DNA of 64,000 nt from Oceanobacillus zhaokaii (GTDB taxonomy: Bacteria > Bacillota > Bacilli > Bacillales > Amphibacillaceae): contig NZ_CP024848.1 in assembly GCF_003352005.1 (NCBI RefSeq), positions 3,915,001-3,979,000 on the forward strand. Reading direction: 5' to 3'. Positions 29,315 to 30,754 of this stretch are shown piece after piece. The stretch's first letter is position 1, and every line of letters begins with the position of its first letter. The notes beneath the pieces are model-generated. The model was given only the letters and a program-made list of their open reading frames with translations. It was not told where the DNA came from and did not search any database. A program made the position numbers and the translations under genes.

Positions 29315-29824
29315 TTATTTTGCCAAATCAATCTTTTTATTCACTATATAAATCATGATACCACCGATAGACATAGATAATAGTTCACCAAGCCCGACCG
29401 TTAAATAAGTCATCCAAAATGGCAAACCAAATACAAGATGTAATTGTCCAGCAACAGTAAACATAGACAAAGCAAAAATAATCGCTGTCACAGCCATCTT
29501 CAGCTTTAGATTTTTCATGTTTTTTGTTAAAGCTCTTGAAAGAATCAGAACAAGAAGGGTTGCAATCCCACCGACTGGGACATCGAGAAACCACATTGGT
29601 GACATGAAGTTGACGATAACTACCCCAAGTGTTACCGCTACGATATAGCGCTTATGGAAGATTGCAAGGTAATTAAACATTTCCGACAGCCTAAGCTGGA
29701 TCGCTCCAAAGCTAATAACGGATAAGATGAGGGTTACTGCAACATACAGCGCAGCAACGAGACCTACCTTTGTCAGGTCTTGAGCAGAAGTGTGTGACGT
29801 TTCCTGATACGTCTGTGTATTCAT
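29315..29824 (-). CDS. queT: Queuosine-precursor ECF transporter substrate-binding subunit
   Basis: A 169-residue integral membrane S-component with about five to six helices. VGLVAALYVAVTLILSVISFGAIQLRLSEMFNYLAIFHKRYI, with the AIQLRLSE block, is characteristic of QueT. It works with a shared ECF energizing module (EcfA/A'/T) encoded elsewhere to import preQ1/preQ0-type precursors for tRNA queuosine. The start is ATG 29824, 8 nt after AAAGGAG. That same ribosome site is base-paired in the riboswitch-like leader, so translation is probably preQ1-controlled. Confidence 0.9.
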   Translation of the reverse strand: MNTQTYQETSHTSAQDLTKVGLVAALYVAVTLILSVISFGAIQLRLSEMFNYLAIFHKRYIVAVTLGVVIVNFMSPMWFLDVPVGGIATLLVLILSRALTKNMKNLKLKMAVTAIIFALSMFTVAGQLHLVFGLPFWMTYLTVGLGELLSMSIGGIMIYIVNKKIDLAK

Positions 29825-29830
29825 TTCCAT

Positions 29831-29917
29831 TTCTCCTTTGTAAAATAGCACGTCGCTATTTTAGTAATAACTATGGCCAAAGGATGAGAGCATATTCGCC
29901 CTGACTAAGTGCCATAG
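29831..29917 (-). ncRNA. preQ1-II-like riboswitch leader of queT
   Basis: On the minus strand, in order: CTATGGC (29917-29911), then CTTAG, a small insert hairpin (AGGGC/GCTCT), TCCTTT (29884-29879), GGCCATAG (29878-29871) closing the first stem, an ATTAC linker, a perfect hairpin AAAATAGC/GCTATTTT (29862-29842), then ACAAAGGAGAA. TCCTTT is complementary to AAAGGA of the ribosome site, so the fold is an H-type pseudoknot that hides it. This is the arrangement I know for preQ1-II: stem, CUUAG, anti-SD, stem closure, AUUAC, hairpin, CAAAGGAG. The CTTAG, ATTAC and CAAAGGAG elements are all where expected. Confidence 0.8.
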
Positions 29918-29975
29918 TGCAAGCATTAAAGCTAACTAGAGTAGTATAACAGAGGGGGTGAAAAATGAATAGGGC

Positions 29976-30731
29976 TTATTTCATGGTCCACCCTCCATCA
30001 ATAGGTATAACCGTACCATGGATATAATCCGCTGCTTCGCTTGCAATAAACAGCGTGAGACTTGCAACTTCCGAAGGGCTGGCCCATCTTCCTGCAGGTG
30101 TTTCCTCCGCCACCCATTTAGCCATCTTCGCGTCTCCCTCAAAATCCGCCTTATTCATCAGCGTTTCAATTGCCCCGGGAGCTAGTGCGTTCGCACGGAT
30201 TCCTTCTCGAACATAATCATAATCAAGCTGCTTCGTATAGCCTATAATCGCATGCTTTGAAGCGGTATATGCTGCTCCCCCGCCACCAGCGACAAAACCT
30301 GCAATTGAAGCCATGTTCACGATGACGCCCTTTTTCCGATTCAGCATATGGACCAAGACTGCATTCGTTACATGGTATGTCCCTTTTAAATTCGTATCAA
30401 TTACACGATCCCACAATGCCTCATTTGTTTCCAATGTCTTTGCATAGCCATCGAGTACACCCGCTGTATTAAGAAGGATATCAACTTGCCCATATTGCTC
30501 AATGGCTCTGTGAACAGCTGTTTCAACATCACGCTTCTCACGTACACTTCCAAGTGCATAATCAAATTTGTCACCATATGTATTTTTTAACCTGACGAGA
30601 CCATCTTCCTTTAAATCTATTGCAAACACAGTTGCACCTTGCTTTAAAAAAGCTTCAGCCTGTGCATATCCTATTCCAGAATTTGCGCCTGTTACAAACA
30701 CAATTTTTTCTTCAAACTCATTAAAATGCAT
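29976..30731 (-). CDS. SDR family oxidoreductase (FabG-like)
   Basis: A 251-residue classical short-chain dehydrogenase. NAD(P)-binding TGANSGIG is near residue 15, the NTAG motif at about 88, and the catalytic Ser-Tyr-Lys set in MASIAGFVAGGGGAAYTASKH. The C-terminal VIPIDGGWTMK is typical of the 3-oxoacyl-ACP reductase-like group. Substrate unknown. ATG 30731 is chosen because AAGGTGAG lies 4-5 nt upstream. It follows the DUF2829 gene on the same strand, but a terminator-like hairpin sits between them. Confidence 0.88.
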   Translation of the reverse strand: MHFNEFEEKIVFVTGANSGIGYAQAEAFLKQGATVFAIDLKEDGLVRLKNTYGDKFDYALGSVREKRDVETAVHRAIEQYGQVDILLNTAGVLDGYAKTLETNEALWDRVIDTNLKGTYHVTNAVLVHMLNRKKGVIVNMASIAGFVAGGGGAAYTASKHAIIGYTKQLDYDYVREGIRANALAPGAIETLMNKADFEGDAKMAKWVAEETPAGRWASPSEVASLTLFIASEAADYIHGTVIPIDGGWTMK

Positions 30732-30754
30732 ATTTCTCACCTTCAATCAGAAAA

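Follow-up and report, generated by a model that had tools for sequence, protein, structure and literature searches.

The leader of queT in Oceanobacillus zhaokaii is very likely a preQ1 class II riboswitch, which would act as a translational OFF switch with preQ1 as the predicted ligand. The leader and the gene lie on the minus strand of the window, the whole 64,000-nt stretch of DNA that was analyzed (NZ_CP024848.1, positions 3,915,001 to 3,979,000). The features are given below in window coordinates; A1 and A2 are two alignments of queT leaders.

29976..30746, minus strand: SDR gene (open reading frame as listed), upstream neighbor of queT; NF005118 3-oxoacyl-ACP reductase, 344.9 bits against a cut-off of 270
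29943..29951, minus strand: extended -10 promoter-like element TGTTATACT, directly upstream of P1, from a pattern search of the leaders
29919..29936, minus strand: P1 hairpin, in which 29936-29931 pairs with 29924-29919; the window copy has a single U-U mismatch
29911..29918, minus strand: 5' strand of P2, ACTATGGC, from the leader parse and A1 covariation
29907..29910, minus strand: A above the pocket and CUU (presumed C30 and U31 equivalents); A-C-U is invariant in A1 and A2
29887..29902, minus strand: accessory hairpin AGGGC/GCTCT, 5 bp, in the junction between P2 and the anti-Shine-Dalgarno
29879..29884, minus strand: anti-Shine-Dalgarno (anti-SD) UCCUUU, 5' strand of the pseudoknot P3; its final U is the presumed U41 equivalent
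29870..29877, minus strand: 3' strand of P2, GCCATAGT, from the leader parse and A1 covariation
29841..29863, minus strand: P4 hairpin TAAAATAGC/GCTATTTTA, from A1 covariation and folding
29833..29839, minus strand: Shine-Dalgarno (SD) AAAGGAG, 3' strand of P3, invariant in A1 and A2
29315..29824, minus strand: queT, queuosine precursor transporter; PF06177, 122.1 bits against a cut-off of 33.7

From 5' to 3' on the minus strand, the order is extended -10, P1, P2 5' strand, A-CUU, linker, accessory hairpin, UCCUUU, G, P2 3' strand, UUAUUAC, P4, SD and ATG. Only the single G separates UCCUUU from the 3' strand of P2, and the first U of the junction UUAUUAC doubles as the final base of P2. The likely start of queT is the ATG at 29824, 8 nt beyond the SD. 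The hairpins P1, P2 and P4 stand in the class II order, and the position of queT (PF06177) downstream of the leader is also that of class II. The fold energy of the leader has a z-score of -3.05, and 1 of 200 shuffles was equally low. All elements named in an earlier sequence-only reading of this DNA (CTATGGC/GCCATAG, CTTAG, TCCTTT, a linker, a hairpin and ACAAAGGAG) were found on the minus strand. Its stem CTATGGC/GCCATAG is present, with 8 bp when the flanking A-T is included, but the label "stem 1" should be replaced, as this helix is P2 of the literature. Likewise, its 8-bp hairpin exists but has 9 bp once an extra T-A is counted. P1, found upstream at 29936-29919, was missing from its list of elements. 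Since P1 lies upstream of the span 29831-29917 given there, that span contains the named elements but is too short, and the RNA extends approximately from 29942 to 29833.

The extended -10 pattern precedes P1 in 51 of the 54 leaders outside Lactobacillales, versus 5 of 23 inside. The element at 29943..29951 was absent from the output of a consensus promoter scan. The conservation suggests that queT may have its own transcription start outside Lactobacillales, and the start of the transcript would probably adjoin P1. The opening consensus positions of the Rfam preQ1-II model RF01054 (UauGcuAuAcU) coincide with the -10-like element at 29943-29951 on the minus strand. Thus, the Rfam model may in part represent promoter DNA rather than RNA.

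The search with RF01054, which the sequence-only reading had proposed as a check, gave an end-to-end match at 29953-29822 on the minus strand (model positions 1-99 of 99), yet with 28.8 bits against the gathering cut-off of 47. The E-value was 0.0057 for 4227 families and 401 bases, and 0.014 for one family and the whole genome. No Rfam family matched anywhere in the window at the gathering cut-offs. Matches of freshwater-2, SNORD103 and IMES-5 at the leader were regarded as chance (E 3.5-9.6), and neither preQ1-III (RF02680) nor preQ1-I (RF00522) matched the leader up to E 10. The RF01054 search was also performed for 76 genomes, namely 75 of relatives and the window's own; the genome of locus L052 was left out, and some genomes of the window's genus entered under two handles. 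The cut-off of 47 bits was reached in none of the 76. At E up to 1, the queT leader was matched in 46 of the 75 relatives' genomes (20.9 to 46.3 bits; 32 of 52 outside Lactobacillales and 14 of 23 inside) and was without a match in 29. The 41 matches elsewhere than the queT leader in these 75 genomes scored at most 26.9 bits. The window leader is filed here as a class II variant, not as a curated RF01054 member; 47 bits is a curator's threshold and not a biochemical feature.

Two custom models, for which E-values are rough, were also used. R2, trained on 22 Lactobacillales leaders only, matched the window leader with 58.3 bits (a rough E of 2.5e-8), with no second match up to E 1 in the 4.1 Mb genome. 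Among 25 chosen sources, R2 matched each of the 21 that have preQ1-II leaders, but not one of the four preQ1-I loci. R1, built from A1, gave 97.5 bits for the window leader, a score that is partly circular because this leader belongs to the training set.

A QueT similarity scan of genome contigs yielded 76 loci, or 77 leaders with that of the window. The 53 loci not named Lactobacillales come from Oceanobacillus, Lysinibacillus, Sporosarcina, Viridibacillus, Caryophanon, Kurthia, Lentibacillus, Amphibacillus and one MAG named only Bacilli, and 38 of them are from Lysinibacillus or Sporosarcina. The other 23 come from Enterococcus, Vagococcus, Companilactobacillus and one Lactobacillales MAG. 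The QueT proteins of the window and of Oceanobacillus polygoni share 87% identity. With these 53 loci, the host range is broader than the sequence-only reading had guessed. In Oceanobacillus sp. Castelsardo (L004 and L049), the window-type queT is broken by stops within the match, and the leader still parses.

The same layout was parsed in 77 of 77 leaders by a script keyed on CUU, a pyrimidine-rich anti-SD, AAAGGAG and the pairing of P2; the anti-SD UCCUUU was found in all 77. Since the script requires CUU and AAAGGAG and rewards an A before CUU, invariance is better judged from MAFFT alignments. A1 consists of 51 leaders (the hairpin-less L069, L077 and L080 were left out), and A2 of 22 Lactobacillales leaders, eight of which lack the hairpin (L094, with a 102-nt insert, was left out). 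In both alignments, A-C-U, UCCUUUG and AAAGGAG are the same in every sequence (51 of 51 in A1 and 22 of 22 in A2).

Two-sided changes were observed in 17 of 32 pairs of A1; the shuffled mean was 7.6, none of 500 shuffles was as high, and slid controls gave at most 8. The corresponding count in A2 was 17 of 28 pairs (shuffled mean, 10.3; slid controls, at most 10), and 17 of 500 shuffles had at least as many further pair types as the alignment itself. For the individual helices of A1, 100% of the cells of P2 and 99.3% of those of P4 are paired, with two-sided changes in 4 of 8 and 7 of 9 pairs, respectively; P1 has such changes in 3 of 6 pairs and its pairing is weak in A2 (56.4%). The complementarity of anti-SD and SD in P3 is invariant in both alignments. 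Since covariation is impossible without variation, P3 is a predicted pseudoknot, supported by conservation only. These results show that the helices of the leader, with the exception of P3, are conserved by covariation in two separate sets. The low RF01054 score is thus found together with strong covariation and with detection by a model of Lactobacillales leaders only. Each part of the sequence-only reading (a preQ1-II-type element, its place before queT in a Bacillaceae-like genome, and the extra hairpin in the loop) is upheld on sequence evidence.

The presumed positions of the pocket bases in the window leader, taken from the RF01054 alignment and the structure numbering, were compared among the leaders. 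The equivalents of C30, U31, U40, U41, A70 and A71 are invariant in A1 and A2, and the A55 equivalent is invariant in A1 only. Above the pocket, A stands opposite G, the A being present in 77 of 77 leaders and the G in 76. According to the available text of PMC11625349, C30 of class II reads preQ1, U41 reads the other edge of preQ1, A70 and A55 pack alongside, and the SD is buried by P3. The same text, on the class II structures of Lactobacillus rhamnosus (4jf2) and Streptococcus pneumoniae, describes A71, the first SD base, as the floor of the pocket, and a G-A pair as its ceiling in L. rhamnosus, comparable to the A and G of the window.

When cellular preQ1 is sufficient, it would be clamped between P2 and P3, and the bound preQ1 would stabilize the pairing of UCCUUU with the SD AAAGGAG. 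Occlusion of the SD in O. zhaokaii would block ribosomes and leave queT untranslated. When preQ1 is absent, P3 would open and the QueT transporter would be made. A translational switch is favored because the SD itself is a strand of P3 and because a search of the minus strand from 29830 to 29950 revealed no terminator-like site; for the latter reason, control of queT at the level of transcription is disfavored. A leader that hides the SD might also work without a ligand, as an RNA thermometer or a plain translational brake, and both the invariant anti-SD facing the SD and a fold more stable than shuffles would suit it. However, all 51 leaders of A1 have the same non-helix pocket bases (A-C-U and the junction A), for which a simple brake has no use, and the RF01054 match and the linkage to queT point to preQ1. 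We consider this explanation extremely unlikely and retain the preQ1 switch.

In the alignments, the accessory hairpin follows the pocket bases as an insert in the P2-to-P3 junction. Eleven leaders have 3-5 nt from CUU to UCCUUU, 65 have 17-37 nt, and a single leader has 102 nt. Thus, insert lengths are bimodal (3-5 nt, or 17 nt and more), and the long insert occurs in 66 of 77 leaders, namely 51 of 54 outside Lactobacillales, the window counted, and 15 of 23 inside. Folded alone, the window insert was marginal against shuffles (p 0.053). The case for a structured hairpin comes from comparison. In A1, two-sided changes were found in 3 of 4 scored pairs and 87.5% of cells are paired, counts kept as obtained with the hairpin misaligned by MAFFT in several rows, including that of the window. 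In A2, 91.1% of cells are paired and one of 4 pairs shows a two-sided change. The 102-nt insert at this site in Enterococcus sp. BWR-S5 (L094:1323-1501) is more stable than 300 of 300 shuffles.

The hairpin may be a functionless filler, with only the class II core of importance, and this would be compatible with a preQ1 switch. The 11 leaders that lack it and the one that carries 102 nt at the site would agree with a filler, as would the 27 of 66 long inserts that fail to beat shuffles at p 0.05 (39 do so, and those of L058 and L103 are no better than shuffles). However, the two-sided changes among 51 sequences despite the misaligned rows, the high pairing in the Lactobacillales set, though with only one covarying pair there, and the bimodal lengths argue against a filler, which we regard as possible but doubtful. 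The accessory hairpin probably tunes the speed or stability of folding, not the identity of the ligand.

The SDR gene precedes queT, on the same strand, in 76 of 76 relatives' loci, and its product is 51-84% identical to that of the window. The gap between the two genes is 110-250 nt in 73 loci; it is longer in L087 (337 nt), L090 (478 nt) and L069 (884 nt), and the intervening DNA has no open frame of more than 73 codons. None of the 24 preQ1-I-linked queT loci of the window's genus has the SDR, nor has any of the 25 loci with RF01054-type leaders, around each of which about 3 kb was examined. The SDR is a possible functional partner of queT, or the two may form a block passed on together.

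A scan of 398 Bacilli genomes of 145 genera (two draws, apparently identical) was made with RF01054, which yielded the RF01054-type leaders, and with R1, both runs using stricter filters by which weak matches are lost. RF01054 was detected in 26 genomes of 2 genera at E up to 0.001 and exceeded its cut-off in 25, all of one genus (g74), which is presumably Streptococcus. R1 found 14 genomes of 7 genera; several of these matches were training sequences listed under different handles. A single genome, G223, was common to both lists. The RF01054-type (COG4708 motif) leaders share with the window type the order P1-P2-CUU-anti-SD-P2'-junction-P4-SD, an anti-SD opposite the SD, the pocket bases and the downstream queT. 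In contrast, only 2-4 nt separate CUU from the anti-SD in all 22 parsed leaders, and three further leaders, unparsed by the script, have a short stretch by eye. Above the pocket, G-C is found in 18 of the 22, A-T in one and A-A in three, where the window type has A opposite G; the junction is CAUAUUAC instead of UUAUUAC. The window locus has both the accessory hairpin and the upstream SDR, whereas the 25 RF01054-type leaders and loci have neither (three leaders judged by eye). In L147-L149, the RF01054-type anti-SD stretch CACTTT seems, by eye, less complementary to the SD than usual.

A QueT match was present in 26 of 28 genomes of the window's genus: five have the window type, 24 a distant type, and three (G000, G003 and G016) both; in G016 the window-type queT is broken. 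preQ1-I above the cut-off adjoins queT in 24 of 24 distant-type loci (20 of 20 and 4 of 4). The genome of the window itself has such a second queT (G000:C1:380448-380966, L028) with an adjoining preQ1-I of 50.9 bits, and preQ1-I matches before queF (41.1 bits) and before queC (35.8 bits, under the cut-off of 39). Among 53 genomes with the window subtype, Lactobacillales left out, preQ1-I was detected in 48 at E up to 0.001 and above the cut-off in 44. In a QueT tree (76 and 24 rows), preQ1-II-linked and preQ1-I-linked QueTs are split by one fully supported branch, with a bootstrap not fully settled. When 25 RF01054-type QueTs were added, they joined a sample of 24 new-subtype sequences with support of 100/100 against the preQ1-I-linked QueTs, and the new-subtype QueTs alone had support of 87/90. 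Long branches were flagged in both trees.

Since two classes for one ligand look redundant, the second queT under preQ1-I and the preQ1-I matches before queC and queF might mean that the class II-type pocket binds another queuosine precursor (e.g., preQ0 or queuine), the two queT genes answering different molecules. Against this, the bases with pocket roles in preQ1-binding class II RNAs, as given in the available text of PMC11625349, are conserved, and leaders with and without the hairpin occur within one genus (the window and L069, respectively). Another precursor is therefore very unlikely, and preQ1 is the preferred ligand. preQ1-I shares this ligand with class II and is a distinct model of 45 positions. 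preQ1-III, which occurs before queT, has ten identical pocket nucleotides in common with class II according to the available text of PMC11625349, and differs in that its expression platform is far from the pocket.

In its available text, the 2024 review PMC11625349 gives preQ1-II as 72 sequences, from Bacillota only and primarily from Streptococcaceae and Lactococcus, and mentions no hairpin in the P2-P3 junction of class II structures, a comparison limited to the text as distinct from the consensus figure. A 2022 paper (PMC9495176, available in part) speaks of preQ1-II for Lactobacillales only, in ambiguous wording, and queT of Listeria is under preQ1-I in the part available of PMC12519234. 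In literature searches by genus and family name and by RF01054, mostly at the title or abstract level, we recognized no report of preQ1-II outside Lactobacillales; the class may have been mentioned there before, and the published consensus may contain a variable junction. preQ1-II before queT in Lysinibacillus, Sporosarcina and their relatives goes beyond the range given in the available parts of PMC11625349 and PMC9495176. Since all 76 genomes searched score below the cut-off, annotation at the Rfam cut-off misses these leaders.

A more far-reaching proposal, which we regard as unlikely, is that a distinct preQ1-II subtype, with A and G above the pocket, an optional hairpin and the SDR-queT pair, would be a main form of the class outside Streptococcus-type genomes. 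Where preQ1-I controls queC, queF and a second queT, it would then serve as a second sensor with another threshold, speed or precursor preference, and the SDR would be an unrecognized partner in the salvage of queuosine precursors. The natural series of leaders with and without a junction hairpin on one pocket is useful for studies of folding and kinetics. Furthermore, paralogous queT genes in one genome stand under two unrelated preQ1 sensor classes; thus, the reason for having two sensors of one metabolite becomes testable.
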